Source: Syncephalis plumigaleata
Taxonomy: Eukaryota > Zoopagomycota > Zoopagomycetes > Zoopagales > Piptocephalidaceae
Direction of reading: 5' to 3'
Length of the DNA stretch: 64,000 bases
Assembly (NCBI GenBank): GCA_025201365.1
Contig: JAIXMF010000002.1
Span: 124,001 to 188,000, forward strand
In this document: in pieces, positions 966 through 57,392 of the stretch
Position numbering within the stretch: position 1 is the first letter of the stretch
Layout: every line of letters starts with the position of its first letter
The notes under the pieces: model-generated
Told to the model about the DNA's origin: nothing
Databases searched by the model: none
Seen by the model: the letters and a program-made list of their open reading frames with translations, nothing else
Position numbers and translations under genes: made by a program

Positions 966-2949
966 TTATACGTAGCGACTCCGTGGAGGCATTGTTCCTT
1001 TGATAGGGGGTGTGGCACTATCAAGGGCAAAATACCTTTCCATTTCCTCCTCGGTTACTCTTATGCGTAAGAAACCGATGATTGACACACTTCTTAATAT
1101 TAGGACAAGCTGGTAAAATATAATGATATAAAATAGGGATGTTGGACGTCTAGCTAATGGCTTGAAGGAGTACAGCGTGGTAAGCAGCAGCAATAACAGT
1201 TGTGTCAATGCTTGCGATACACTCAGCAGGATCAACTACGATAATAATGATAGCATTAGTAAATCAACAAAAGATGTTCAACTCGGCTAGTTTACCCTTC
1301 GTATTGCCCTACGCGTTTGTCCGCTAAGTGCATAGCTACACCATTTCCGATAGAATGCAACGCCTAACAATAATAATAGTTCAGCAGGTATGCTACTCTA
1401 TACTAATATCCATTCAATTAAATTACCGTAGGAACCAAAGAATACAATGTAAATCAATGAGGAAGCAGCGTTCGCACTCGATGTAATGATGGTTTCGAGC
1501 CATTGAAGATTAAATAAATTTGGTAGGTTCATCATGTTGATGATAGCAGTCATCATGATTAATACGCTAGCTATAGCTATCATGCAATAGCAACAGCGTC
1601 GCCATATTAGCGAAAAGTAGGGCAGTCGTATCAGCCTAGATCGAATGTTAGAACAATTAGATACGCATGATCTACTCACCATAACACCGCCAGTGTAATT
1701 AATCCAAGGTTGGCGGTTATCTCGCCTACAATGTAGAAAATACCGCGGGTTAATTCAAGCAGTTTCAATGGTGGATACACAATCTGGCCTAATAGTATAA
1801 TCCGTTAGTATTATTTTACTATGCAAAAGTGTTCTGCAAATACTTACATGCCGAAGAGATAATAACGAATGAGTAGGCCATATTTTTACAGTTGAAATGA
1901 AACTCTTTCCATAAGAATAGTTGAAATATTCGGAAAAATCCTATAAATAAAATGACGGCATTCTATCGTATTGCAGGAAGAATCAACATTTGCCCATTTT
2001 ATATATGTATATGTATACAAGTCTATTTGAGCTAGAATGACTTACCGCGCAAGATATCAGCCATGTTATGGCAGCATAATCACTGGTAGCAAAGTAAACA
2101 TTCCACGGGCCAGCATCTAAACAAAATGATTAGTACTATATTAGTTCATTCACTGGTATTTACCTTGATTTAGAATGCCAGTAACGGTGTTGCGTGCATT
2201 CGAGTGGATAGTATTCCATGCATGTCGTCCATCAGAGGTATTCAGTAAGGCTATTGTGACATTCCCATTCAAATTTGGTGGCTTATAGCATGGTATATCC
2301 TCCATTGTATCGGTGCGACAATAGGATGCAAACGGACCTTGTGCCTCTTCACTCTCCACAGTAATTAATACGGCTGCCAATGCTGGATAACCATTATCGA
2401 GTAGTTTCATTCTACTATTTAATACTGTATTGATTGTCTATTAATGATCATCATCATTGTTAGCACCATTATTGCATTACAATGAATTACAAGCTTAACT
2501 TGTTTGTAGGACCGGCATCCAGCAGTTAGCATCGCATCTGGATCTATGAGCACAAGCGTACGATTAGCCCCAACGATGCCATGAGCGATGGTGGCCGTCT
2601 CGTTTGTCGATAATACAGGCCATGGATTAATGGTGCAGTTGGAGCTGAAGGATGTCGATAGGATGATTCCTTTTATGCCTGCATTAGTACTATTATGCGA
2701 TAACTTTGTAGTATTACTAGGTGTATACTGGAAATAGTTGGATGTTGCGTAGATTTGCGATCCCGTCGATAATTGTAACCGAGCAGCTACTGGATGAATG
2801 TTTATGCCAACTATTACATGTAGCAAGATAATGATAATGCAGATTTGATTAAGGAAATGCACTAGACTCTTTCTCAGTCGCTTTCCCTGTAACCCTCTTG
2901 TTTTGTGGTACATCATTAAATGAAGCTGTGCATCCAGTGCCGCTATCAT
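966..2949 (-). CDS. 7TM receptor-like protein with PA-like ectodomain
   Basis: Eight exons restore one 521-aa frame: 2949-2500, 2437-2164, 2116-2046, 1962-1848, 1788-1680, 1635-1427, 1363-1296 and 1235-966. The start is the first ATG after an upstream stop. The protein has a basic N-terminus, a signal-anchor helix and an N-glycosylation-rich ectodomain of about 200 residues. A segment GCRSY...GYPALAAVLI resembles the protease-associated (PA) fold. Seven hydrophobic helices and a short tail follow. Charged loops between TM3/TM4 and TM5/TM6 fit a plasma-membrane receptor, but no known GPCR class signature is recognised. It faces a related partial gene at 51-637. The splice sites are my reading; the PA assignment is tentative. 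Confidence 0.6.
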
Positions 2950-3499
2950 TCCATAGAATCCACTATGTAGCTTGCTTAACAACGAACAATGTATTGATTA
3001 TAAATTAGTTTCACGAATAATTAGTATTACGATTAATGGCAATGATAATAGTTGAAGAAGTGGCGATGAAAGTATCTAGCCGGAGGTTGCTCCATTTGAA
3101 GCAGACAATTATTGCTTGGAAGTAAGGGCTCGAATGGAAATTATACATACTGCATGGTAACATTTGTAGCACTGATTATTGTGCCACCGCATGAAAGTAA
3201 AGCCTATTCAGGTATGAGTACCAATTTGGAAGGATCGACACCTGGCCTCGTCATTTGACATGCAGATGCACTGAATTCCCGTACATAATGTAAAATGTAT
3301 ATAATAAATTTATAGAATATTAAAGCGTAAATATATATATCGTATTAATCATATAGGTAATTATAATAATGATACTGCTACTACTAATACTAGCACAATA
3401 GAATAGAATAGATAAGATAAGATAGTAAGGAATAATCGACCACATCATTATAAACAACAACAACAATAACAACAACAGCAGCAGCAGCAACAATATGTC
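2950..3499. other. Intergenic region upstream of the 7TM gene
   Basis: AT-rich region between the 7TM gene's start (minus) and the 3' end of the arrestin gene (minus). It contains a CAA/CAG-rich simple repeat at about 3459-3492. No gene is seen. Confidence 0.4.
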
Positions 3500-6400
3500 T
3501 TAAGAAGTTATTATATCAGAGTTCATAGATGATAGTGATGGTCGTTCCTTTGCTGTTGGTTCATCTTGTTGATTTTGTCGTGCAATAATTGTATCTTGAT
3601 TGAATTCAGCTTCCGTGTTTAAAGATTGATCTGGATTAACAACATGAAGTGCACGAGGCAGTAAACCTCGACCAAAAGTGGATGCAGGTGTACCTGATGT
3701 ATCTCCAGTGGCAGTACCGCTACCAGTAGTGGCAGCTGCATTGGTTGTCCAAGGTTTCACCGGTAATCGTGTAAAAATGTCGTCATCAACATCAACATCA
3801 CCATTAGCGATCTCTGCTATATCATGATTGTTCGTAGTCCAACCGGTGATGCCTTGATTCAGAGAAGCAGATGTAGGACCTGTTTTAGAGCTACTTGATG
3901 TTGGATCAGATAATTGCGGTTCAAGCATGATTGCTTCTGAATCATCCTCGGTACTAGCCAACGATGTCACTTCTATACTTGAATCAATTAATGACTACTG
4001 TATAAAAGATGTGCACTAATGTAGAGATACTCACCTGATGTGACCGGTAATTCAACATTAGCATCCAATTCAATACCTAATGACATTGAACGAATAATGA
4101 ATGAATGAATGAGTGAAATAGGGTTATGCATGATGATTTCTTACCATGTGCGCCATAATAAGTTGAATACACTCTGTTAGCTGATCGTTCCACCTTTCGA
4201 GCATATTCTCTATTGGCTATATATACATATACATATACATATACATATATATATTGTTAATCATCAATTTGTATCAATTATTACTAAGACACTCACCGTC
4301 ATTATCAGTATCTTCATTGCCTTCGGGTGTAAGATCACTCCATGAGGCTGGATGAGTGACATAGATTGGTAATTCTACTGTTAGATCCTTACTATTAAAT
4401 AGAAATATGCTTAGTGCTCGTCGATGATATAAGTGTGGCATGATTAATGATAGATTACCTAAGATGCATATGTAGTGATACTTGTAGAATGTGACTAACA
4501 CGTAATAATGTCGTATTCCTCAATGATATACTATTATGCTATAGCGAGTAAATGAATGAGTACTATAGGATACAGATAATAGTATGATTGATGTACACTT
4601 ACAGGTATGGTAAGTGCTAGTGTTACTTCACGTTCTTCCTCTGGATCAAATTGCCAGTCATCTCCTCTGTATGTACGTTCCGCCACTAGACGACAATTAG
4701 AATCGAGTACCGATTGTGTTTGTTGTGATAGTTCGCCTTCAACGAATGCATCACGCTTTGTCGTGACACGATGCCATAATGCGAATCGAATCCTACTAAC
4801 CTGTATCATTTTTGTTCGTTTAATAAGAAGTATAGGCTACTACGCTTACGTATTCTTAATAGGTTGACAATAACTTACACGCTTCCTTGTGTGATTACGA
4901 ACACCTAGACGCACGTAAACAATCCCACCCGACGATACTAGACGACGTGTTGTCTCAGCAATACATGAGAGATGACCATCACCACCGAGGAATGCTCGTT
5001 TACGCGCTTCAGCACGTACTCGTTCGGCACGCGCTAGTTTGACCTCTTCCGCCGACCATCGCTCGTAAATGCAAACTGATCGTGTATGAGCAACCACTTC
5101 GGATCGATTACCCGAGGCACACACTTGAGCAACACTAGTTGATAAGTGAAATGACCAATATTAATATTCACTACCAGTGGTCATAATAATAAATTGTGAT
5201 GTCACATTACCAAGCAATCATATAGCGTATCGAGCCAACCTTTGATCGGAAACTACTGGGTAACTTATCGGATAGCGAGAATGCAAACTGTAGAGTAGTC
5301 GTCGTTTTACGTGCTTGCCAATAGCCATCTCGATCTAATAACATTATTGGTGAATAGATACTCAAGAAACTATTATTGCCATTTGATTACCTGGTGGTAG
5401 ACTGCGTACAGCAGCATCACAAGGAGTGTTAGCATCTTGTAGCAAAGTGCGTGCCCGATAGAATAAACAACGTCTTCCACCATTAAATTGACTATTAGTT
5501 GATGAATCCGATGTCACCTCTAATCAATACATAATGACAATCGTTTAATAATCACATTACTAGTTATTACATAGGATAAACACTTACCTTCGATGCCAAT
5601 CACCTCCACCGATACTTCACCGAGTCGAATAGATGATGACTGACATTGTATTTCAATTCTACCCGTAACTAGTCCACCCGCACAAAAGAATGCTCGATCG
5701 AAACGCATTGATATACCGAATTTACCATTTTTTGAGGTTGGTCGTGCAACAAGTAAAGTTGAAATAGCCGGTCCTTCATTATTATTACTGATACTATTAT
5801 TACTATTACTATTATTTGTAGGAGTTGATGATTTCGCGTCATTACTTGCAGTTTGACGTAGACCACCACCACCACCACCTACAACTGCATCGATATTCGT
5901 CTCTAGTGTTCGCTGACTGGGATCCGGTACAGGACTAGCGATGCTTGGTCTATCAGATCGACTGATCAATGGAAATGCCGGTGGCACATTGGAGGATGCT
6001 GCACCCGCTATCGATTGTACAAATAGTGTGGATGGCCGTGATGAAGCACTGGACGATGAGGATGCCGATGATGGATGTCGTGGTAAATGCTCGACATGAT
6101 TCACTGATGGCGTGGAATGACGCGTGGAATAAGCGGCGGATGATGACGTGGTCGCGGGACGTTCCGAACTTTGCGATGTACTATGCGATGTACTCTGTGA
6201 TCCATTTCGTAATAGATGATTATCAATGACATCGAGTGATATAGGCGAGAATGGACGATTTATCTCGCCTTGACTCATATGACGCGGTCTTGACGTGGTC
6301 GATGAAGCAATGGAGGATGATATCGATGCACTAATAGGCAGTTGATCTGATGATACAATTCTTCTATGATACGGCTGACGTTGATTATTATTATTATTGT

Positions 6401-7823: not shown

Positions 7824-7952
7824 AATAGCGCTATTTTAATTTTAAATAGCGTTTTATTGATGAGAGGCCAAAAATCTTTATAAAGGAGCCGGTGAGTCCA
7901 GCTCACCGGCGACCACTACTTTTCTCCTTTATTCGTTTGTTGGCCATCTCTC
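7824..7952 (+). repeat. Left split direct repeat (A1) of the DIRS element
   Basis: 129 bp, identical to 12036-12164. It contains the palindrome AATAGCGCTATT, a TATA-like TTTATAAAG at about 7877-7885 and a perfect 9-bp-stem hairpin at 7888-7910 (GCCGGTGAG/CTCACCGGC, loop TCCAG). The TATA-like site suggests it carries the element's promoter. Confidence 0.9.
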
Positions 7953-8054
7953 TCGGCAAACAACTGAATAAAGCGTTCTAGCAAGTCAAAATTTTTTATT
8001 GAAGAATATTCTTACCTTTATCTATCTATATTTCCATATATTTTATTTTATAAC

Positions 8055-9080
8055 ATGTCGGACGGGTCAAGTCAACAGAATTTCGAAGACGAAGAGCCTG
8101 CTGCTGTGCGCATATGTCAGGAGGATATGGCCGCAATAGCAGATCTAGTGTCTGAAAGGATGTTACAGAACCCCCATCGCCCAACTGGAGCTTCGGATCG
8201 TGCAAACAATAATGATCTGCAGGCGAACGGTACGAGGGCAGGTGCTAGTCAGGAGGCCGAAGCACCCGGTCTAATACAGGAGGGTGTCCAAGATGTTGAA
8301 CGGGCACGACAGGTTGCACAGATTATGCAACGCGAGAGGGAACAGCGGGAGGCGAGCGAGAATCAGCTAGACCCTGATGAAGCGTCCGAGGACGAGGACC
8401 CTCGTGGGAATATAAAAATTACAAACGAAAAAGAAGCGGAAGTTCCAGTGGAGTTCGATCCAACATCGCCGCAATTTGTCGAATTTTTGCTTCGGATTAC
8501 GCATTTCTATGAATCGCCGTCGGAATATGCTCAGTCGCATGAATTATTGACTCCCTTCTTGGGTTTTATTCCCGTTGTTAATTATGTGGATCCACGGCCG
8601 CAAAATCTCTCAACCATTCACGATGAAATTTTCCCAAAGTTAACGGGAGAAGGACAGCGAGAGGGACGCGCGATGTTATCGCTGGTTTTGTACATCATCA
8701 GAACCATGCAGGCGTGGTCAGCTTGGAACGTTGAGTTGAAAAAAGGATCGCCTGGGTATTTGATAGTAGCCAGCATCCTACAGGTGATAGAGCGTACCGT
8801 ACTTACCCGCTATTCGATGGTGAGAGCTCGTTTGGATTTGAGCGACGACGCTATTCGACAGGTGGAGTCTAGATTGGATTCGGTCGGTATGATTCGATAC
8901 ACACACAATACCCAAGCTGAGATACTCCGTGCGCTGAGGAAGAAGGAAAGTATGCAGGCTCATCGAACTGCAAACCAATCGTCTAGCAGCAAATCAAAGG
9001 CTTCAACGGCTACCGACGCCAAGAAACCCGCCAATACAACTCGAAATGGCGGTCCGGCGGGCGGTGCCGGTCATGCCTGA
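8055..9080 (+). CDS. Gag-like protein of the DIRS element
   Basis: A 341-aa frame beginning with the first ATG after the left repeat. It is acidic, Glu/Gln-rich at the N-terminus, helical in the middle, and ends in a Ser/Lys/Thr-rich tail. No zinc knuckle is seen, as is common for DIRS gag. It overlaps the start of pol by 35 nt. Its role in particle formation is inferred from position only. Confidence 0.65.
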   Translation: MSDGSSQQNFEDEEPAAVRICQEDMAAIADLVSERMLQNPHRPTGASDRANNNDLQANGTRAGASQEAEAPGLIQEGVQDVERARQVAQIMQREREQREASENQLDPDEASEDEDPRGNIKITNEKEAEVPVEFDPTSPQFVEFLLRITHFYESPSEYAQSHELLTPFLGFIPVVNYVDPRPQNLSTIHDEIFPKLTGEGQREGRAMLSLVLYIIRTMQAWSAWNVELKKGSPGYLIVASILQVIERTVLTRYSMVRARLDLSDDAIRQVESRLDSVGMIRYTHNTQAEILRALRKKESMQAHRTANQSSSSKSKASTATDAKKPANTTRNGGPAGGAGHA

Positions 9081-11052
9081 TTCGAACTCGCCACCTCCAG
9101 GCGATCGGCCCCTGCACTTAAGTGTAAGATCGGCCTGGAAACGGTGGCATCATATAGGGGCGAACGGAAGAGTGTTGAAGTGGATCCGGCGTGGTGTGAC
9201 GGTACCTTGGGCAGCAGCAGGCGCGCCCTCACCTTTTCATCATCAATCCTACCAGGCCCGCGACCCAGCGGAAGTCCAGTTCCTCGAATTGGAAGTTCAA
9301 CGGTTGTTGCAAGCCGGTGCAATAATCGAAATCCCAGAGAGTCAAGCCAAATACGTCTCACCAACCTTCTTGATTCCTCGCAAACCGCAAGGCTATCGAC
9401 TGATAATCGACCTACGTTATTTGAATCAGCATTGTCAGGAAATGCCTATGCGATACGAAGACCTGCGCGTGTTAAAATATCTGGCACAACCCAACGACTC
9501 CGCTATCGCCTTCGATTTAAAGGACGGCTATCTAGCAGTAGGAATCAGGCCCAGTCAGCAACAGTACTTCCAAACGAAGATACTAGGAAAGTATTACCAG
9601 TATCAGACTCTACCGTTCGGTTGGAACCTGTCTCCTTATTTCTTCGTCAAGGTAATGCGACCCATGGTACAGTATTTGCGCGGGCTAGGTTTGCGATGTC
9701 TAGCTTACTTGGACGATTTTCTGATCCTACTCGACCAGCAGCAGAAGAAGGAAGGATGGCCACAAAAGGTACAGCTACTGTTGAGGAGCTTAGGTCTACG
9801 AGCGCATCCAACAAAATGTACTTGGACACCTACGCAAGTCATAGATCATCTCGGTTATCGGTTAGATTTTGCAAAGATGGAGTTTCAATTAACCGACGCG
9901 TATCGCGAAAAAATAAAGCTTACCTTATTACACGCCTTAAAAGAGTGTGCCAAGAAGACGCGAAAGCTCGACGCAAAGCAGTTAGCTCAGGTTACAGGCA
10001 TTGTCATAGCCGCACGACACGCGATTCCATACATCATGATACATCTCAGAGCGCTATACAACGATCTACGCGGAAAGGAAAGTTGGAAGGTCAAAGTCAA
10101 GGTCAGCAACGCCAGTATACGGGAGATGCGACGAATCTTACGAATCGTGAGCGATCAGCCAGCCGCACCGATAAAGCAACGTCCAGCACAGTTCACCATT
10201 ACTACCGACGCGTCAGACGAAGGGTGGGGAGCGACAATGGTGGAAGAAGGAGGACGGGAAAGATTAGCTTACGGTCAGTGGTCAGAGGAGGAGAAAGAGT
10301 TGCACATTGTCCATCGAGAGGCGTTGGGGCTTTTATACGGCGTAACGGCCTTCAAGACTTTCCTACACAATTCCACAGCACAGGCCCGAATGGACGCGCA
10401 GGCATCGATTGGCGCGCTAAATGCACACGCATCTTCCAGCGCTTCCTTGCACAGCATCGTGAGACGCGTATGGGAGCTATGTCAACGAAACAAGATACAG
10501 CTATTGGGGTTGATTCAATATTTGCCAGGAAGATACAACGTAGAAGCGGATTTCTTGTCGCGAATAATACAAAAATCAGATTGGCAACTACCCAAAGCAA
10601 TGTTTCAAGAGATAGAAGACGCATACGGACCTCACACAATCGATCGATTCGCAGCCGGGTGGAACGCACAGCTACCGCGCTACAACTCGCTCAACGTCAA
10701 CGATGGCTGCGAAGGAGTGGACGCTCTACAGTGGTCATGGAAAGGGGAGAACAACTTCATCAACCCTCCTTTCGGACTCATCGGGGTAATCCTCAACAAG
10801 CTGGTAAGAGATCAGGCGCAGGCTACCGTCATATTGCCCAGATGGACCAGTCAACCTTGGTGGCCGTTGGTGCTCAAGCTGATGGTTTCCACATTGGAGG
10901 TAGACTCACCTCGGGTATGGGCGAACATATTGTCCAACACCGACGTAATGCCGGAGCCTCTCGTCAATCCCGCTTGGAAGATATTGGTAGCCCGGTTGGA
11001 CGGAGCGAGACTTTGCGCGCCCAGATGGTGCGAAGTTGGATGCAACAACTGA
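9046..11052 (+). CDS. DIRS pol: reverse transcriptase, RNase H and methyltransferase-like
   Basis: A 668-aa frame. The RT palm motif YLDDF and fingers/palm blocks (FDLKDGYL, LPFGWNLSPYFF) identify a reverse transcriptase. An RNase H region follows (TITTDASDEGWGA, ending EADFLSR). A C-terminal stretch with FAAGWNAQLPRYNS and NFINPPFG matches the DNA-methyltransferase-like domain that separates DIRS/PAT from Ngaro elements. It belongs to the same mobile element as its neighbours. Confidence 0.88.
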   Translation: MAVRRAVPVMPDSNSPPPGDRPLHLSVRSAWKRWHHIGANGRVLKWIRRGVTVPWAAAGAPSPFHHQSYQARDPAEVQFLELEVQRLLQAGAIIEIPESQAKYVSPTFLIPRKPQGYRLIIDLRYLNQHCQEMPMRYEDLRVLKYLAQPNDSAIAFDLKDGYLAVGIRPSQQQYFQTKILGKYYQYQTLPFGWNLSPYFFVKVMRPMVQYLRGLGLRCLAYLDDFLILLDQQQKKEGWPQKVQLLLRSLGLRAHPTKCTWTPTQVIDHLGYRLDFAKMEFQLTDAYREKIKLTLLHALKECAKKTRKLDAKQLAQVTGIVIAARHAIPYIMIHLRALYNDLRGKESWKVKVKVSNASIREMRRILRIVSDQPAAPIKQRPAQFTITTDASDEGWGATMVEEGGRERLAYGQWSEEEKELHIVHREALGLLYGVTAFKTFLHNSTAQARMDAQASIGALNAHASSSASLHSIVRRVWELCQRNKIQLLGLIQYLPGRYNVEADFLSRIIQKSDWQLPKAMFQEIEDAYGPHTIDRFAAGWNAQLPRYNSLNVNDGCEGVDALQWSWKGENNFINPPFGLIGVILNKLVRDQAQATVILPRWTSQPWWPLVLKLMVSTLEVDSPRVWANILSNTDVMPEPLVNPAWKILVARLDGARLCAPRWCEVGCNN

Positions 11053-12014
11053 ATCTACCTGTCAACGTGAGCGATGAGCAGCGTGAGCGGCTTATGTTGT
11101 TATTCGAACGGCAGTATACAGCAGCATCGTGGAATACATACACTTCGCATGTGACTAATTATACGCGTTTTTGTGAGTTACATAACGAGCCGCCATTCCC
11201 TTTGCAGGTGGGTACATTAGCAGCTTACATCGCCACAGCCAGTCTGCGAGAACTGGCTCCATCCACAATTCAATCGCGCCTTTCGGCGCTACGGTCAATC
11301 AACGAGCATCTCGGCTTCCCGGAAATCGAGGGCTCGTTGGTTGCACAACTAACGAGAGGATACGCGTCGTGGTCGTACACTGAACGACCCACCGTATCCT
11401 CAAACCTAAACTTTTTCCTCCCCTCCTGGCTGGCCCCATTGGTGTCGGGGGATACGCAGTCTCCAAGCCAAAAGGAGCTGCGCGACCTGGTGGTGGTTTT
11501 AGTAGGTTTATTGTGTGGGTTGCGCGCGTCCTCTCTGATGAAACTTCAGAAGAGTGACGTGCAATTGGTAGGCCCTACCCTACGGGTAGTGGTTCATGGT
11601 TCTAAGCGTCATACGCATGAACCTGGACGGCCTGTCAACATCGACACCACTAAAACCATCGCCGCCCCCCTCATTCGCCGATACCTGGAGTCGGCATCAT
11701 ACATCAACAACACGGAACCAACGTTTTGGGTTCCCGTGTTCTCCTCCAAAGAGATATTTAGGAGCAGTATTACAGTTACGGGGATTCTAAGAGAGGTGTT
11801 AAAGCAAGCGGGCGTGCCAGCAGCCGTTGCTAATTCGATGATGTCCCATAGCATTCGACGTACATTCACTTCAGCTACACACAGTATTGGTGTAGACGCT
11901 TCGCGAATCATGCATTATGGTCTATGGGAGACCATAAGCTCGATGCAAAGGTACGCGCGGCCAGAATATGTCCCTCATCCATTTGACTATGCTTTTTATA
12001 ACTTCATGTTATAA
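11040..12014 (+). CDS. Tyrosine recombinase of the DIRS element
   Basis: 325 aa, starting at an ATG that overlaps the end of pol by 13 nt. It has an N-terminal SAM-like helical core-binding region and a catalytic region with a conserved Arg (GLRASSLMKL), SHSIRRT and a C-terminal Tyr (MQRYARPE). This is the recombinase that integrates circular DNA in DIRS-type elements instead of a DDE integrase. Confidence 0.85.
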   Translation: MQQLNLPVNVSDEQRERLMLLFERQYTAASWNTYTSHVTNYTRFCELHNEPPFPLQVGTLAAYIATASLRELAPSTIQSRLSALRSINEHLGFPEIEGSLVAQLTRGYASWSYTERPTVSSNLNFFLPSWLAPLVSGDTQSPSQKELRDLVVVLVGLLCGLRASSLMKLQKSDVQLVGPTLRVVVHGSKRHTHEPGRPVNIDTTKTIAAPLIRRYLESASYINNTEPTFWVPVFSSKEIFRSSITVTGILREVLKQAGVPAAVANSMMSHSIRRTFTSATHSIGVDASRIMHYGLWETISSMQRYARPEYVPHPFDYAFYNFML

Positions 12015-12035
12015 GACCTCCGGACAATAGGCAAT

Positions 12036-12164
12036 AATAGCGCTATTTTAATTTTAAATAGCGTTTTATTGATGAGAGGCCAAAAATCTTTATAAAGGAG
12101 CCGGTGAGTCCAGCTCACCGGCGACCACTACTTTTCTCCTTTATTCGTTTGTTGGCCATCTCTC
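12036..12164 (+). repeat. Internal split direct repeat (A2) of the DIRS element
   Basis: Identical over 129 bp to 7824-7952, including the hairpin and TATA-like motif. The junction AGGCAATAATAGCGC at its left edge is the sequence expected where the right and left ends of a circular copy meet. Confidence 0.9.
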
Positions 12165-12597
12165 CCACCCATCCACAGACCCTTATGCCTGGTGCGGAGA
12201 GTTAACTTTTCTCCTTTATTGTCGGTTTCCTCTTTGCTCACTAGCCTACTAATATTCCCTTTCACCCCCCATTAGCTCACATAGTTAACAAATTTTCAAT
12301 AAAGTTTTTGGCCCCAGGCAATAATACAAAATCCTACCTACTTCATTAATAACAATAACAATAATAACAGCAATATCACTATTTTTATTAACTATTTGCT
12401 TACTGATTGACTATGATGATGACTGAATGAGTGATGTGGTCTCGTGTTTTGTTGATTCTAAATATCAATAGGTCACGTGGAATGTATGTCTAAATGAGCT
12501 TTAAACTTCAAATGGAGATGGAAAAATGGAAAAATCGGTAGATTCTATAATTTACTTGCCGCCACTGTTTCGGAGTCACAACACACATTTTTTTATA

Positions 12598-12640
12598 CAG
12601 TGTTTTTCCATCCAATTTGCGCATTTATCCTTTAACATTT
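12598..12640 (+). repeat. Left terminal inverted repeat of copy D
   Basis: Begins with CAGTG after a TA. It shares TTTTTCCATCCAATTTGCGC (20 nt) with the reverse complement of the right end at 13630-13672. Confidence 0.75.
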
Positions 12641-12799
12641 GCTGTTTATTAATAAATAATATTACACAATTGTTAACACCATTATCGCACTACTATTATC
12701 ATTGAGTAGTTGTCATTGCCCTAACAGTTGAGGGAAATGTTAATGATCGCGATATCATATATTACAATTAGTGATAATAAATAATAGACACATTGATAG

Positions 12800-13050
12800 A
12801 ACTCACATATCTTGGATGCAAAGTGATAACAATCACGGATAAGTTGTTTTCTGTTGTTTGATCTTCATTGTTGCACTGATCCTTCATTTCTTTGAACATC
12901 TGAAGGTAACACCACTGATGAAATGTATCTATAAGTATACGTAATCCTTTCTGAAATGCGCTTCTTATTGCTCATTATTACCCCCAACCATTCCTGCATC
13001 ATGAGATTGGTGTCTATGTTGGTATTACAGCCATGTCCCTTCAACACTCA
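12800..13050 (-). pseudogene. Fanzor/TnpB-like C-terminal remnant, minus half of copy D
   Basis: Similar on the minus strand to the 3' parts of the remnants at 44080-44530 and 55165-55600: a GTGATAACAATCAC block, a TTGTTTTCTGTTG block and a CTTCATTTCTTTGAA block, in the same order. The reading frame is not continuous. Identity is by alignment to the other copies only. Confidence 0.4.
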
Positions 13051-13199
13051 CCATAGTTTCAATATCGAATATTGTTGCATTATCCACTATAAATATGGGT
13101 CCTATTTTGTACGAACTGAATAAACTTATCTTCACCTTCCAGTTCAATCGTCCCTATTACACTCTACTCACACTACCTTATTGTATATCGCCTACACAT

Positions 13200-13617
13200 T
13201 GTGCTTGAGCAAATCGAGCAACCATAGCTCCCACACTATCAATGAGAAAGTGTCCTACTACTTGTCATGATCCCTTACGGTAAGTATACCTCATTACACT
13301 TTGATATTTATTACAGTATACTAACTCATTATTCTATTAGATGCACACATCAAAAAATATAAAGAGGACATGCAAGTTAAAGGATTCGAGTATCGTTTGT
13401 GGAATCGGGGTTATGGTTGCTCGTCTGGATTTCATTCAAATCACCAACTGTCTTCGTAGTGGAACCGATGTTCCAACACACCCTCATCCAAGTGTCATTG
13501 CTTCCAATCATTCAAGATCAAGGAGGACAAGGACACCGAGGAACCAAACAACAAATAACAAATTAACCGCGGTGGTTATCGCCAATTATTCCGCTTAAAA
13601 ATACGTAAGTGTTAACT
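13200..13617 (+). pseudogene. Fanzor/TnpB-like C-terminal remnant, plus half of copy D
   Basis: Two exon-like blocks are joined by a well-formed intron (GTAAGT at 13280, TACTAAC branch, CTATTAG end at 13340). The first block has a CPTTCH motif and the second reads EYRLWNR, then in a shifted frame MVARLDFIQITNCLRSGTDV. This order (Cys motif, NRD-like motif, Ala/Asn helix, then a short polar tail) matches the zinc-ribbon and RuvC-III end of eukaryotic TnpB homologues (Fanzor). At least one frame break and one stop interrupt it. Only about the last 100 codons are present. Confidence 0.5.
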
Positions 13618-13629
13618 ATTATTTATTCA

Positions 13630-13672
13630 TAAAACAGAAGGCTAACTGCGCAAATTGGATGGAAAAAGCCTG
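13630..13672 (-). repeat. Right terminal inverted repeat of copy D
   Basis: Reverse complement begins CAGGCTTTTTCCATCC and continues AATTTGCGCAGTTAGCC, followed on the plus strand by TA at 13673-13674. Confidence 0.75.
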
Positions 13673-13674
13673 TA

Positions 13675-32816: not shown

Positions 32817-32880
32817 TACGATGACGTTATTTTAATCAAGAATACACAAATAAATCATACGCAAGTGTGGATAATAATAG
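32817..32880 (+). repeat. Stray copy of the F-box/Fanzor intergenic segment
   Basis: Nearly identical to 34797-34860 (TACGATGACGTTATTTTAATC, then ATAAATCATAC, then AAGTGTGGATAATAAT) and in the same orientation. It lies just beyond the 3' flank of the intact F-box gene, where that flank stops matching the copy at 46144-46262. It marks a junction with a second, mostly deleted unit. Confidence 0.7.
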
Positions 32881-32998
32881 AACAGTTGACTTACTCGATT
32901 AATCATCCAGTTTATAGAAAGTATTAGCATGTGTTATGGTTTAATGATGTATAAACACTACTCTTATTAACTAATGTAATATGATTTATTGATGTTTG

Positions 32999-34758
32999 CT
33001 ATAGTTCACCGTATTCTTCTATCACTAGCGCATATCTTTCATCAAAACTACATATCGTACCAACCATTGCATAATTATCCACTTGTTCGTCCTCGTTTAG
33101 TGCTTCCAATTCGCGTATTATTTTCTTTGTACTTATGTCTACAAGCAATTGTCTGTATCCACCATTACGATCTTCTATATCAAAAACATAAAGATCTCCA
33201 ATAACATTTCTGATAAAATCTGTACGCGGTATTTGTAATACTTGATCGTCATTGTAGGATAAATCTGTCCATACTTTTGCTGGTCTGGAGCTAAATAATA
33301 AATACTTGTATCCAGCCCCTAATAATGGAGTAGGCATATGTCGGTCAGTCATAGTATAGCAATTACGTGGAGTGTGGCTTTGACCACTGGATGCTACACT
33401 ATGTATTATGTATGGATGATAATCAGGATGACCACCAAATTGAAGCATTATATGCGAGTCGTATGAATTATAAGAAAATATTGACCTAGCCATTATTTCT
33501 TCAGGTAATTGGAACCAGCCATTTCGCAATCGTACAACAGGATTATTGCTCGAGAACTGGTGTAATGCCCATTCAATACGATTTGTATCATCGTCTTTGA
33601 CTAGTCTTGCTGTGTATACTATTGCTGTATTATTGGTTGTTTTATAGAAATGGACTGCATTCCATGTATCATCAATGCTTCCTGGACACATGGTATTATT
33701 ATCTATATCGAATACCATTATATTGGCTGAATGTATTATGATTAGTACTAGTTATATGGCATCATTATATAGGTATCATTCTTACAAATTGGTGAATACA
33801 GAAATGACTGTTGTGTTTCATGCGCTAATAATACCCATTTCCCCTCGATTGTATTCACATAATATCGTGCTGGAACATTGAATGTAGTGATAACACCACC
33901 ATGTTTGCGGGAAAGTATTTTTACATTAATGCTGGTATCGCTCTCAAACGCATAAGGAGATACGGCTATGTAATGATCACCCTTGACATGATGATACTGA
34001 GTTTCTTTACCACTATCCAGTGAAAGGACATTTGGCGATGCAGAGAATGTGCTGTTATGTACAATATTGTTGCTTGATCTCAGATTCGGATGTGGCAGAT
34101 ATTCTATAATATAACTATGATATGATGTCCTATTTAAGCGATTTTGTTGTTCGATAAATATACAATCATTAAAAGAATATGTGTTATAGCGTACTCCATC
34201 CCTGTCCTGTTTCCTATTGATCTGCGCGGTGTTGCATCGTCCACATCGCCAATTATTCTCGGTGCTCACACGTCGACGATATGTGTTGTACCAGTCCACA
34301 TTCTCTAGTAGATCGGCTCGTTTATCCGATGTACATGGATTGTTGACATCTGTGCGTACACACCATAATACGAAATCCATTTCTTTAGTATAATACACTC
34401 CCGATAGGAAATCCTTATGGTATCGTTCTTGCCATAATGCTCTATCATCTCGAATACTGCTTCTTAACGAGTGACAACATGCTGATAAACGCAATAGTTC
34501 GATATGACCAAGTTGGTTACGGAAAACACGCTGGTCATGAGGTGGAAGACTATTTAGACAATCAAGTAATCTACAAGACGAGCTGGAATTACTCAATATT
34601 TCAGTAGTTGTAGTAGTAGTCGTAGTTGTTGTAGTCCTAGTGGTTGCAGTAGTAGTAATACTAGTAATAGTAGTTGTCGTAGTATTGTCAGTGGTAGCAG
34701 TACTAATGGTTGTCGTAGTATTGCCAGTAGTAGCAGTAGTAGCAGCAGTAGTAGACAT
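32999..34758 (-). CDS. F-box protein (intact copy A)
   Basis: Two exons (34758-33786, 33726-32999) joined by a GTAAGA...TTCAG intron give an unbroken 566-aa frame. Residues 1 to about 52 are almost pure Thr/Ser/Ala, coded by triplet repeats. An F-box-like region follows (LPPHDQRVFRNQLGHIELLRLSACCHSL), then a long beta-rich part with no named repeat. F-box proteins recruit substrates to SCF ubiquitin ligases through Skp1; the target is unknown. Two close relatives at 44530-46144 and 55620-57235 are broken. All three sit head-to-head with a Fanzor-like remnant, so this gene belongs to a duplicated or mobilised unit. The F-box call rests on sequence pattern and is moderately sure. Confidence 0.7.
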
Positions 34759-34796: not shown

Positions 34797-35220
34797 ATAC
34801 GATGACGTTATTTTAATCGAGAACACAAAATAAATCATACACAAGTGTGGATAATAATGAAACATGGTGTTCAAGTATTTCTAATTGACGAGATATCCTA
34901 CTGTCACTTGTCATGCCTTCTTAATATGAGTACAATCTATAACAATATACTAATTCATTATTCTATTAGATGTACACATCAGAATTGTAAAGATGACATG
35001 AAAGGTAAAGGATTCGAGTATGTGTATGGAATCGGGATATGGCAGCATGTCTGAATGTTATTCAGATTATTCTGTCTTCGCAATGGAAATGGTGTTCTAG
35101 CACAACTACATCAAAGTGCCATTACTTCTAAACATTCAAGAAATGAAGACAACAAGAAACAACTTAACTGTGATGGTTATCGCTTTCACATCTTAATACG
35201 TAAGTTTTACTATGCCACTA
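34797..35220 (+). pseudogene. Fanzor/TnpB-like C-terminal remnant, copy A
   Basis: Starts 40 bp from the F-box ATG and points away from it. The first block reads NHTQVWIIMKHGV-like sequence in the other copies and IDE followed by a Cys/His cluster. A conserved intron-like stretch ends CTATTAG at about 34969. The second block has RCTHQNCKDD and GFEY. Frame breaks and stops are present, so it is not functional as read. The four related copies keep the same order, which argues for a common coding ancestor. A terminal inverted repeat is not recognisable beyond 35220. Confidence 0.5.
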
Positions 35221-43752: not shown

Positions 43753-44079
43753 TCTCACTAAAATACTATTATCTAGATATATAGAGCATAATTATGATAA
43801 TTAGAATAATGAATAACGAGAGATAATAAAGGGAACAAGTGGCGATTTCACTTTATAGTTCTCTTTTTCTTCTTTATTCAATTAGAATGATACCTTCTAA
43901 GAAATACAGCACATCCTATTTTGTTAATGTAGCACGATGTCATGATCAATTCGCGTAAAAATACACGCAAGTTTGTTCCAAAATGTTCATTAAAAAATGA
44001 TTCATACATTCATCTTTGTATATTGAGCCGATACAGATTTTCCATCGTTACGTGTAGCATTTTGTTTTCGAATAATGAT

Positions 44080-44530
44080 AGCTATGTGATAAGTATTTAG
44101 ATGTGAGTAGCGATAACCATCACGATAATTGTTTTGTTGTCTTGTCCTTCATTTCTTGAAGTTTAAAGTAATGACACTTTGATATAGTTGTATGAACACC
44201 ATTTCCATTGCGAAGACTGAGAATAATCTGAATAACATTCAGACATGCTGCCATATCCCGATTCCATAATAATACTCGAATCCTTTACCTTTCATGTCAT
44301 CTTTACAATTCTGATGTGTGCATCTAATAGAATAATGAATTAGTATATTGTTATAGATTATATTCAGCTTAAGAAGGCATGACAAGTGACAGTAGGATAT
44401 CTCGTCAATGAGAAATACTTGAACACCATGTTTCATTATTATCCACACTTGTGTATGATTTATTTGTGTATTCTTGATTAAAATAACACATCGTATTTCA
44501 CTACCCCTTATCGCTTTCTTATTCCATTCC
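44080..44530 (-). pseudogene. Fanzor/TnpB-like C-terminal remnant, copy B
   Basis: On the minus strand this reads SEIRCVILIKNTQINHTQV, then VQVFLIDE, a Cys/His cluster, a conserved intron-like segment with CTATTAG, then CTHQNCKDDMKGKGFEY. In a neighbouring frame the next bases encode WNRDMAACLNVIQIIL. Fanzor/TnpB proteins end with the same order: a DEY/NEF block, Cys ligands, a (W)NRDxNAAxN motif that holds the RuvC-III Asp, and a short tail. At least two frame breaks make it inactive as read. Upstream coding sequence is missing and the F-box gene takes its place. Confidence 0.5.
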
Positions 44531-46144
44531 ACTATGTACTACTACTACTACTACTGAAATATGAGTAATTCCAACTCGTCTTGTGATTACTAGTTTGTCT
44601 AAATAGTCTTCCATCTCATGATCAGCGTGTCTTCCGTAGTCACTTGGTCATATCGAATTAGTGCGTTTATCAGCATGTTGTCACTCGTTAAGAAGCAGTA
44701 TTCGAGATGATAGAGCATTATGGCAAGCACTATATCATAGAGATTTCCTATCGGATGTTATTATGTTAAAGAAATGGAATTCGTATTATGGTGTGTACGC
44801 ACGGATGTCAACAATCCATGTATATCGGATAAACGAGCTGATCTACTAGAGAATGTAGACTGGTACAACACATATCGTCGACGAGTAAGCACCGAGAATA
44901 ATTGGCGATATGGACGATGTAATACCACGCGTATCGATATGAAAGCTGACAAGGTGGATCATGTCATAGCACAGAAGCTGAGGATAATAGTTCAGATATC
45001 ATAGAAGAAAATTGCTCAGACGAAACACCAAATTATAGTTTAGAATATTTGCCACATTCAAATCTGAGATCAAACAATAATATTGTATAACAGCACATTC
45101 TCTACATCGCCAAATATTCTTCTGCTTGATGCTGGTAATGAAAATGACTATGCTAGTGTCGGGGGTGACCATTACATAGCCGTATTTCCTTATGCGTCTG
45201 AGAGCAATACCGACTCTAATGTAAAAATACTTTCTTGCAAACATGGTGGTGTTATCACTACATTTGATGTTCCAGCACAATATCAATTGGATACAATCGA
45301 GGGAAACTGGGTATTATTAGCGCATCAAATAGTAGGGTTATCCAGGGATTTGCGAGTTTGTAAGTGTGTTAATTGTACAATGATGCCATATAACTAGTAC
45401 TAATAATCAATGGATTCAGACGGTGTAATGGTATTCGATATAGATAATAGTATCATGTGCCCAGGAAGCATTGATGATACATGGAATGCAGTCCATTTCT
45501 ATAAAACAGCCAATAATACAGCAATAGTATACACGGCAAGACTAGTCAAAGACGATGATACAAATCGTATTGAATGGGCATTACACCAGTTCTCGAGCAA
45601 TAATCCTGCTGTACGATTGCGAAGTGGTTGGTTCCAATTACCTGAAGAAATAATGGCTAGGTCAATATTTTCTTATAATTCATACGACTCGCATATAATG
45701 CTTCAATTTGGTGGTCATCCTGATTATAATCCATACATAATACATAATATAGCATCCAGTGGTCAAAGTCATACTCCACGTAACTGCTATACTATATGAC
45801 AACATATGCCTACTCCATTACTAAGGGCTGGATGCAGATATTCAATGTTTGATTGCAAACCACCAAAAGTATGGACAGACTTATCATACAATGATGATCA
45901 AGTAATACAGATACCGGGTACAGATTTTATCAAACATATTATTGGAGATCTCTATGTATTTATTACAAAAGATCATAATGATATAGGAAGCCAATTACTT
46001 GTAGACATCAGTACAAAAGAAATAATACGCAAATTGGAAGTGCCAAACACGGGCTCGGACTTGCCTGATTATACAATGGCTGGTACGATATATGATCTCG
46101 ATGACAGCGATGTGCAAGTAATACAAGAATACGGCGAACTATAG
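44530..46144 (+). pseudogene. F-box pseudogene, copy B
   Basis: Closely similar along its whole length to the intact gene at 32999-34758, including the intron near 45360-45410 and the EYGEL C-terminus. The Thr-rich N-terminal tract is reduced to a few triplets. Several frame breaks and premature stops divide it (for example near 44560, 44840 and 45060, and a stop near 45799). Some could be assembly indels, but the number argues for real decay. It is the cargo of the TA-flanked element. Confidence 0.65.
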
Positions 46145-46475
46145 CAAATATCAATAAATTATACTATATTAGTTAATAAGAGTAGTGTTTATACATCGTT
46201 AAACCCTAACACATGCTAATACTTTCTATGAACTGAATGATTAATCGAATAAATCAACTATAGTAGCAATTGAGACATCAAGCTGTACAAACTGATGAAT
46301 GCTTCTCAATACATAGAGGATGTTACTCGATAGCACATGTATGCGTCATCATTCATTCTGCTTGATTGAGGGTTGCTATCTGAATTCTCTCGCATTCCAT
46401 TATAACAATGCATTGAATAAACAAGCATCCATATTGGTGTTAACAATTGTGCAAGTCTATTATTAACAAAGAGCA

Positions 46476-46518
46476 AAAGCTAAAGGCTAACAGCGCAAAT
46501 CAATTGAATAAAACACTG
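46476..46518 (-). repeat. Right terminal inverted repeat of copy B
   Basis: On the plus strand AAGGCTAACAGCGCAAATC followed by an end CACTG and TA. The reverse complement aligns with all other recognised ends of this family. Confidence 0.7.
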
Positions 46519-46568
46519 TAGCCAACAATTTCTTCGTGGAACACATTCTTTTTTATTATGATTCACAA

Positions 46569-55067: not shown

Positions 55068-55164
55068 GTGTTCATCTCTAATAAACTCCCTTTCTTCATT
55101 ACTGCTACTACAAGACTTTTCCTATGTTTAGCGCTGTGAGTCTTTTGTTTATGAATAAATGATA

Positions 55165-55600
55165 GCTATGATGATAAGTATTTAGATGTGAAAGTGATAA
55201 CCATCATGAATAAGTTTTTATTTGTTGTCCTTGTCCTTCATTTCTTGAACGTTTATAAGTAATGGCACTTGATGTAGTTGTATTGAACATCGTTTCCATT
55301 GCAAAGACTGAGAATAATCTGAATAACATTCAGACATGCTGCCATATCCCGATTCCATAAAATACTCGAATCCTTTACCATTCATGTCATCTTTACAATT
55401 CTGATGTGTGTATCTAATAGAATAATGAATTAGTATATTGTTATAGATTACACTATATTAAGAAGGCATGACAAGTGACAGTAGGATATCACGTCAATGA
55501 GAATACTTGAACACCATGTTCATTATTATCCACACTTGCGTATGATTTATTTGTGTTTCTTGATTAAAATAAACACATCGTATTTCACTACCCCTTATTG
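55165..55600 (-). pseudogene. Fanzor/TnpB-like C-terminal remnant, copy C
   Basis: Nearly the same as the remnant at 44080-44530, with scattered indels. On the minus strand it has IRCVYFNQETQINHTQVW-type coding, the intron-like block ending CTATTAG, then GFEYFMES in one frame with the WNRD-like motif recoverable only in the next. It is not open as read. Confidence 0.5.
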
Positions 55601-55619
55601 CTTTCTTATTCCAATCCAC

Positions 55620-57235
55620 TATGTCTACTACTACTACTACAGAGATATCGAGTAATTCCACTCGTCTTGTAGATTACTAGTTTGTTGAAGATATTCCATT
55701 TCATGACCAGCGTGTCTTCCGTAACCACTTGGTCATATCGAACTATTGCGTTTATCAGCATGTTGTCGCTCGTTAAGAAGCAGTATTCGAGATGATAGAG
55801 CATTATGGCAAGCACTATACCATAGGGATTTCCTATCGGATGTTATTATGTTAAAGAAATGGAATTCGTATTATGGTGTATACGCACGGATGTCAACAAC
55901 CCATGTACATCGATAAACGAGCCGATCTACTAGAGAATGTAGACTGGTACAACACATATCGTCGACGAGTGAGCACCGAGAATAATTGGCGATATGGACG
56001 ATGCAAGACCATGCGTATCGATATGGGACGGTACGAGGATGATGTACGCTATCACACCTCCGCTACATCTAATAATTTAGTGACCATAACACATAGTCAT
56101 TCAAACAAATCAGGATTGGAAAGTTATTATGCTTTAGAGCTTCTACCACATTCAAATCTTAGCTCAAGCAGTAATATTGAATGTGAAAGTACATTGTCCA
56201 CATCGCCAATGCTGTTTTGCTGGATAATGGCACCAATACTCGTTACACGTTTGTCTGGGTGATCATTACATAGCCGTATTTCCTGATAAATTCGAGTACG
56301 ATACCGACTATAATGTAGAATATTTACCCGTAAATATGATGACGTTTTAACTACATTCAATGTTCCAGCACGATATCGAGTGAAAAAAATCAAAGGGAAA
56401 TGGATATTGCTAGTGCGTCAATTAGAAGAGACAGTCGATGATATATTAATTTTTAAAGGTAGGCGTAGTAATTGTATAATGATACAATATATGTAGTACT
56501 AATAATCAATGAATTTAGACGAGATAATGGTATTCGATATAGAAAATAGTATTATGTGTCCAGGAAACATTGGTAATACGTGGAATGCAACTCGTTTCTA
56601 CAAAACAACAATAATGCAGCAATAGTATACACAGCAAAACTAGTCGATGATGATTATACAGATCGTATTGAGTGGGCATTATATCAATTCTCGAGCAATA
56701 ATCCTGTTGTACGATTGCGAAGTGGCTGGTTTGAATTACCTTATGAAATCCTGCCAGATCGTCTAGAATTCGCTTTTAATTCACCTGACTCACACATGAT
56801 ACTACAGCTAGTTAGAGACGAGGAAGACTATTCCTTTATAATTCATGATGCAGCATTAGGCGGCCAATGTAACACGCCAGAAAACCTTTATACTATATCT
56901 GATGATTGCTTACCAATCCCAGTGCTACAGCTGGATTTGAATGTGAAATTTACATATTGCTCCGAGGAAGTATGGACAGATATATCTTGTAGTGACGATC
57001 AAATATTACGGTTTCCAGGCGCGGAGTCATATCACCATATCATGGAAGCTTATACTTAATTACACCCCAGGATTCCAAAGATCCTAGGTTACTTGTGGAT
57101 ATCAATACAAAAGAAATAATACGCAAACCAAAGACTACAATTCCAGAGAAAAGATAAAGGTATATACAATGGTTGGTATACTATGTAGTGCAGATGCAAT
57201 CTACGAAAGTAATACATGAATACGGTGAACTATAA
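55620..57235 (+). pseudogene. F-box pseudogene, copy C
   Basis: Similar to the intact gene at 32999-34758 from the F-box region (RLSACCHSLRSSIRDDRALW at about 55750-55815, in shifted frames) to a C-terminal EYGEL at about 57220-57233. Many frame breaks divide it. Compared with copy B the middle part is more diverged, so copy C is an older duplicate or has decayed faster. Confidence 0.6.
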
Positions 57236-57392
57236 CTAGTATCAATAAATCATTATCATTCATCATATCTTATAACACATTGTTATTGATTACATTAGAA
57301 CGAGCAATATGTTTTTATCAATTAATAATAAATCGAGATGAAAAAACGTCATCATTTCCTTATTCTTCCCATTACGCTTTTCTGTTATAACA

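Follow-up and report, generated by a model that had tools for sequence, protein, structure and literature searches.

A TA-flanked element family with an F-box gene and a Fanzor remnant in Syncephalis plumigaleata

What kind of unit carries an F-box gene back to back with a Fanzor-like gene at positions 44034–46518 of the stretch examined here, and does it move? The window, meaning the whole stretch of 64,000 nucleotides, is part of contig C112 (JAIXMF010000002.1) of the Syncephalis plumigaleata assembly GCA_025201365.1, which is 32.6 Mb long and consists of 383 contigs, many of them short. A preliminary description had proposed a TA-flanked mobile element that lost its transposase and the front part of Fanzor and captured an F-box gene instead. 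The unit is considered here, with a probability of about 0.72, to be a non-autonomous TA-inserting element of the Tc1/mariner type with a Fanzor tail, which spreads F-box receptor genes and is replaced in place. As genome searches scored the best matches first, all copy numbers given below are lower bounds.

Borders, ends and dispersed copies

The element is 2,485 bp long and has TA exactly at both borders (Table 1). When 110–111 bp of each flank were joined and searched against the genome, both flanks of this site were recovered and overlapped by exactly TA, in full agreement with the borders first proposed. The same exact 2-nt overlap was obtained at all three sites tested, the other two belonging to further copies. 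Terminal inverted repeats (TIRs) of the family begin with CAG, and its ends read CAGNNNTTTTCCAWYCRATTWRCGC. Because the left end of the copy at 44034–46518 is degenerate (CAGATTTTCCATCGTTACGTGTAGC), the TTTGCGC and GTTAGCC blocks, reported earlier as shared by both ends, are present here at the right end (minus strand, 46485–46499) but not at the left one; in other copies this type of end motif is clear at both ends.

Searched with TA included and at most two mismatches, the end pattern gave 1,104 genome matches (553 + 551), and the reversed control gave none (0 + 0); chance is therefore excluded by the genome-wide recurrence of the ends. A DNA search with the element yielded 712 candidates, the best 40 of which were scored. 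Matches to the F-box gene occupy at least 120 scored places, the best of 309 candidates, with homologous contigs counted apart, which bears out the proposed spread of the F-box-bearing element. The architecture is fixed: the Fanzor remnant lies upstream in head-to-head order in 93 of these 120 matches, and any other arrangement was seen in none. Fifty-one copies of the F-box gene were fetched, and recognisable ends were accepted up to 11 mismatches, the best of 60 shuffled stretches having 13. Both ends were recognised in 26 copies and at least one in 39, so that the placement of F-box genes inside recurring ends held among the fetched copies. The same ends also bound short elements of about 240 bp (L061), 0.6 kb (L064 and L065), and 1.1–1.2 kb (window 12598–13672 and L062).

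An ordinary multigene family could also arise by segmental duplication and ectopic recombination, with the TIRs as mere neighbouring repeats. The 12 of 51 copies without recognisable ends would fit such an origin, as would an additional piece of upstream sequence behind the gene in copies L016, L026, and L031 and one crosswise flank similarity, that of L020 with L028 and L030. Otherwise, however, flank matches past the element were found only in 13 same-site pairs among the 51 copies, and the homology breaks at TA and TIR, with the exact 2-nt overlap at three of three sites. The exact TA overlap, the recurring ends, and the presence of ends in most fetched copies therefore point to a mobile-element family, and segmental duplication, already disfavoured, is very improbable.

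All three related copies reported earlier, at 33–35, 55–57, and 12.6–13.7 kb of the window, exist, but the one at 33–35 kb has no recognisable ends. The third copy has a left TIR that reads TA and then CAAGACTTTTCC, and a Fanzor remnant at 55353–55565 (minus strand); its right end was not found. The element at 12598–13672 has its Fanzor remnant at 13306–13531 on the plus strand. The additional piece in L016, L026, and L031 is about 70 bp long, lies directly after the F-box gene (window 32817–32884), and is perhaps left over from tandem copies or belongs to a different right end. The left flank of L015 recurs at C81:18790 (98% identity) and C35:250421 (95%) up to the insertion point, and the right flank is absent there.

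Table 1. Coordinates of the element at 44034–46518 and of its relatives in the window
Feature	Position	Strand	Remarks
Target-site duplication TA, left	44032..44033		joined-flank overlap
Non-autonomous TIR element with F-box gene and Fanzor remnant	44034..46518		
Left TIR	44034..44075	+	degenerate in this copy
Fanzor1 C-terminal remnant	44134..44487	-	frameshifted, with stops in this copy
F-box gene, exon 1	44534..45359	+	broken frame in this copy
Intron	45360..45419	+	60 nt, GTAAGT...CAG, TACTAAT inside
F-box gene, exon 2 (beta-propeller part)	45420..46144	+	ends ...EYGEL, frame interrupted here
Right TIR	46470..46518	-	inward reading CAGTGTTTTATTCAATTGATTTGCGCTGTTAGCC
Target-site duplication TA, right	46519..46520		joined-flank overlap
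Second copy, F-box gene, exon 2	32999..33726	-	intact
Second copy, intron	33727..33785	-	59 nt
Second copy, F-box gene, exon 1	33786..34758	-	intact; whole gene 566 aa
Second copy, Fanzor remnant	34824..35159	+	no recognisable TIRs in this copy
Third copy	55110..57253	+	left end approximate, decayed F-box gene
Related element with the same type of ends, no F-box gene	12598..13672		TIRs; TA at 12596-12597 and 13673-13674

Fanzor remnant and the missing transposase

Two internal genes pointing outward had been described, and both were found again: the C-terminal remnant of Fanzor, on the minus strand, and the F-box gene, which starts at about 44534 on the plus strand. The leftward gene is, judged by its sequence, what remains of a Fanzor1 gene. 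Eight exact translations were combined into a profile and compared with 177,635 PDB sequences; the best matches were two fungal Fanzor1 proteins, with E of 0.019 for that of Spizellomyces (8gkh) and 0.023 for that of Parasitella (9cf0), and the next match had an E of 0.15. The E-values are modest, but rank and register, like the NRD motif, are in keeping with the Fanzor motif given by Bao and Jurka (2013, PMC3627910). The remnant aligned to the C-termini of both Fanzor1 proteins, with only the second cysteine pair of the zinc finger in the alignment; in the family it keeps the second half of the zinc finger and the NRD motif, and its leftward frame includes IRCTHQNCKDDMNGKGFEYRVWNRDMAACLN. A Pfam scan of the remnant gave nothing relevant.

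A full-length Fanzor1 frame with the upstream RuvC aspartate was not seen in the best 150 of 541 Fanzor candidates, which makes the gene a remnant and not a working Fanzor. Among the same 150, no Fanzor frame longer than 185 codons was found, though a multi-exon or unscored Fanzor would escape this search; the suggested intact master copy with Fanzor and F-box gene was likewise not among them. Stops are present in 8 of 26 non-redundant copies of the remnant (one per same-site pair, with an ungapped frame over codons 20–118). The ratio of nonsynonymous to synonymous differences (pN/pS) in these copies was 0.63, compared with 0.77 and 0.74 in the shifted frames, so protein constraint is not clear. 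The remnant is read as a relic, and its good conservation is ascribed to the homogeneity of the whole left part of the element.

Saito et al. (2023, PMC10432273) described for the ghost Spu-1 of Spizellomyces punctatus 134 loci that have the ends and a guide-RNA-like region and lack a Fanzor frame. By analogy, the 3' end of Fanzor could be the source of guide RNA for a Fanzor made elsewhere, with the F-box gene as an accidental passenger. The Fanzor 3' end does lie beside one element end, both in F-box copies and in the short elements at 12.6 kb and in L062, L064, and L065. No convincing RNA fold was obtained at this end, however: in 25 copies with a left end of at most nine mismatches, alifold gave a z of -1.95 at about half a kcal/mol, and the putative guide RNA region had no match in Rfam. 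Together with the lack of a Fanzor frame above 185 codons among the best 150 candidates and with an F-box gene too well kept for an accident, this makes a ghost locus highly improbable. The functional link of an RNA-guided nuclease with a ubiquitin-ligase adaptor, raised in the preliminary description, is not supported: no intact Fanzor was found among the best 150 candidates, constraint on the remnant is unclear, and there was no convincing fold and no Rfam match.

The TA duplication and the TIRs shared by dispersed copies are those of non-autonomous Tc1/mariner (IS630) elements. In the 26 elements with both ends, every frame of at least 150 codons on either strand was an F-box or a Fanzor-remnant frame, and the nearest of 26 DDE_3 places was 4.4 kb away from an F-box match; the elements are therefore without a transposase of the DDE_3 type. 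A Tc1/mariner-like element without transposase, as first proposed, is thus supported by the TA duplication, the CAG-starting TIRs, and the lack of a transposase-like frame. The F-box gene also stands where the front of Fanzor would lie, beside the C-terminal remnant, as expected from the proposed loss and capture.

As sources of the transposase, two Tc1-type elements in L064 and L067 were rejected, as their ends differ from the family end motif, CAGNNNTTTTCCA. The element at 22–1677 of L067 (C1:572000-574300) looks recently active. Its two 213-bp inverted repeats, which follow TA and begin with CAGTGAGGGAAAG, are identical, and its one uninterrupted transposase frame codes for DDE_3 and HTH_Tnp_Tc3_2 domains. 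In L064 the Tc1-type (DDE_3) element, at 2717–4451, is decayed, has ends of 34 bp (TTACCTTGCACT), and lies just inside another TIR-like end of the F-box element family. A 4.2-kb TIR pair on C1 (L066, C1:1009500-1013800) was also rejected; it is a short element with an inserted 1,163-codon frame that, judged by eye, is of the LINE (long interspersed nuclear element) type. PF03184 and PF01359 had no match in the genome, the PF01359 search being run without a positive control. In the window itself, a DIRS-type retroelement was annotated at 7824–12179, with 144-bp direct repeats (95%) around overlapping frames for reverse transcriptase, RNase H, Dam methylase, and tyrosine recombinase.

F-box gene with a constant and a variable part

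The F-box gene of the copy at 44034–46518 is broken; it has no ATG-started frame of 150 codons, and only 223 codons are open across the intron. The gene is intact in 30 of the 51 fetched copies. The deposited protein P0001 crosses the exon junction without intron-coded residues. Single open frames of 530–555 codons were found at C351:758472, C321:14880, C318:266673, C54:7325, and C157:26849, and these copies are possibly intronless or have an open intron. The predicted model has F-box helices followed by a beta-propeller, with FBXW8 and Fbw7 as top folds. It thus resembles the Fbw7/Cdc4/FBXW8 substrate receptors (comparators PDB 2ovq, 3v7d, and 7z8b) of SCF (Skp1-cullin-F-box) ubiquitin ligases in the order of its parts, with no match in sequence; a PDB sequence search with the family gave nothing meaningful. 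These receptors are not known to be carried by transposons. Domain PF12937 scored above the Pfam cut-off in three relatives, P0006, P0007, and P0008.

A protein database search recognized only four close members, P0001–P0004, with 60–68% identity, against at least 120 places in the genome, and the deposited annotation may therefore lack a large share of the family, perhaps because of repeat masking. Divergent relatives P0005, P0008, and P0009 are coded in the same genome.

The identity profile along the element was computed from 18 of the 25 copies with both ends at no more than 10 mismatches, one per same-site pair; only for L032/L052 were both members kept. Positions 112–891 of the element, with the Fanzor remnant, the upstream region, and the F-box, are 89–98% identical between copies, and the remaining coding region, positions 892–2203, is 63–89% identical. 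The non-coding positions 2204–2443 are 92–94% identical; this stretch is missing from many copies, so that the value comes from 55 of 153 pairs. The variable coding DNA therefore differs more than its immediate non-coding neighbours. In the outermost parts with the TIRs identity is lower again, 71–85% on the left and 74–90% on the right. Such a homogeneous F-box part joined to a variable remaining coding region, as it appears in the alignments, was not part of the preliminary description, nor was the apparent same-site replacement.

In the 30 intact copies, synonymous and nonsynonymous differences increase together. This suggests that lineages of the variable part are old or have been exchanged, and it does not suggest positive selection. 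Single pairs gave dN/dS of 0.96 (L002/L010) and 1.16 (L027/L039). In a permutation test for mosaic runs, 93 of the 427 non-allelic pairs exceeded all 200 permutations; the test takes no account of blocks conserved to unequal degrees and was not used as proof.

The maintenance of the F-box frame in many copies argues that the cargo would be a family of predicted working SCF receptors and not passenger debris. The frame could also be kept for the spread of the element, if the receptor were a selfish transposon gene that marks a silencing or repair factor of the host for degradation. The gene does lie within recognisable ends in many copies and is intact in many, and captured TET/JBP genes on fungal DNA transposons likely counter silencing according to PMC12730594. 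It is, however, not obvious why counter-silencing would require a target-binding part that varies so strongly; short elements with the same ends (about 0.2–1.2 kb) multiplied without the F-box gene; and the divergent relatives P0005, P0008, and P0009 may lie outside elements. A selfish role is thus rather unlikely.

Same-site pairs, origin and comparable systems

The 13 same-site pairs among the 51 copies share flanks, mostly on both sides, and usually consist of one long and one short contig. The paired contigs probably represent both haplotypes of a heterozygous genome; Ahrendt et al. (PMC6784888) reported genomes of higher than haploid level for three of the four Zoopagomycota in their study. 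Identity was computed for 10 of the 13 pairs (L021/L023, L038/L042, and L053/L059 were left out, and L018/L019 has no left flank there). In six of the ten, the element between its ends is 83–92% identical and the flanks are 92–99.6% identical, so the elements look replaced in place. The identity changes near the element ends in L003/L014, L032/L052, L028/L030, and L035/L041; in L002/L010 only a part of the element differs, with a 584-nt identical run and 62–67% identity elsewhere. The variable segments of L003/L014 and L028/L030 are 76.4% and 78.1% identical, respectively, near the mean of all pairs (75.4%), and the constant parts of L003/L014 are 93.4% identical, compared with a family mean of 91.6%. 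Both anchors of the variable segment were found in 37 of the 51 copies, so six of the 13 pairs have no value. In-place replacement, by excision repair from another copy or by gene conversion, seems to be the simplest reading of these pairs.

Chimeric joining of repeats during assembly would give a similar picture, and with 383 contigs, many of them short, repeats of 2.5 kb can be mis-joined. In the four pairs with a change near the element ends, however, the divergence is bounded there by flanks of high identity, about 75% identity in the variable part makes confusion of copies unlikely, and little or no such divergence is present in other pairs. An assembly artefact is therefore improbable.

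Several results weigh against a mobile, in-place replaced element with receptor cargo. Besides the 12 copies without recognisable ends, no uninterrupted (empty) site was found in the assembly in any of the three joined-flank searches. No transposase with the ends of the family was found; PF13358 led to several families, among them those around C90:384266 and C1:1859478, and ends were read for two, in L064 and L067, which have other TIRs. Since the best matches were scored first, estimates of intactness are biased upward. The first Foldseek match of the predicted model was a non-F-box protein, on a second look other propellers tie with FBXW8 and Fbw7, and PF12937 stayed below the Pfam cut-off in the element-borne proteins scanned. 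Diversifying selection was not detected, as pooled pN/pS in the 30 intact copies never exceeded 1 and was 0.56–0.78 in the variable windows. The other four of the ten same-site pairs are 96.8–98.1% identical inside the element, with little or no excess divergence over the flanks (a small excess in L006/L007, flanks 99.6–99.9%), and in five of seven pairs with a value, the variable segments are 93–99% identical and clearly closest to each other.

With these points included, a mobile, recombining F-box cargo is supported, and its history could be as follows. An ancestral element with a Fanzor1 gene would have lost everything but its two ends and the final part of Fanzor. One lineage would then have gained an F-box/beta-propeller gene of host type, with an intron, in head-to-head order with the Fanzor remnant, and a transposase acting in trans may have multiplied this element to at least 120 places. 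Selection would have kept the F-box frame in many copies, and the cargo would have become a family of predicted working SCF substrate receptors. In these, the F-box part would stay constant, the variable predicted propeller part would bind substrates, and diversity would be spread by exchange between copies. An element at a given site could be swapped by excision and repair from another copy, or by gene conversion, with the shared ends and the constant part as homology.

No description of an F-box cargo together with a Fanzor remnant was found in the open-licence literature, searched by titles and abstracts, with subscription papers and bioRxiv outside this scope. Fanzor1-bearing Mariner elements (Bao and Jurka 2013, PMC3627910) likewise have TIRs, TA duplication, and Fanzor1; the PUl-4 elements among them encode no transposase, and relatives carry nucleases and methyltransferases. 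The Syncephalis elements differ from them in keeping only the C-terminal part of Fanzor, in their intron-bearing F-box cargo, which is diverged between copies, and in their presence at 120 or more places. Ghost Spu-1 (PMC10432273) likewise has many Fanzor-transposon ends without a Fanzor frame, but the ghosts keep a guide-RNA-like region, and the available part of their description does not mention protein cargo; in Syncephalis, no convincing RNA fold was obtained. The F-box A2 family of Caenorhabditis (Almeida et al. 2025, PMC12062965) is also large and linked to Tc1/mariner through a helix-turn-helix domain; there, however, the transposase domain is described as fused into F-box genes, whereas in Syncephalis the whole gene is cargo inside a TIR element. 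Fungal TET/JBP transposons (Kojima 2025, PMC12730594) likewise represent a captured host-type gene on a DNA transposon, but with another gene and in other superfamilies, and a constant and variable structure is not mentioned in the part of that paper that was available.

Syncephalis is a genus of zoopagomycetes, called mycoparasitic in reference titles, and the F-box cargo family is thus set in a mycoparasite lineage with little-known recognition genes. It is a tentative possibility that the transposon-borne SCF receptors form a recognition repertoire of the mycoparasite, for self and non-self or matched to its fungal hosts, diversified by in-place replacement through excision and repair. If the reading of a mobile F-box cargo is true, a DNA transposon turns a host-type ubiquitin-ligase adaptor into a dispersed and recombining family of genes, each made up of one constant and one variable part, and the element family would be a natural series in which cassette exchange at fixed sites by transposon excision and repair may be probed.
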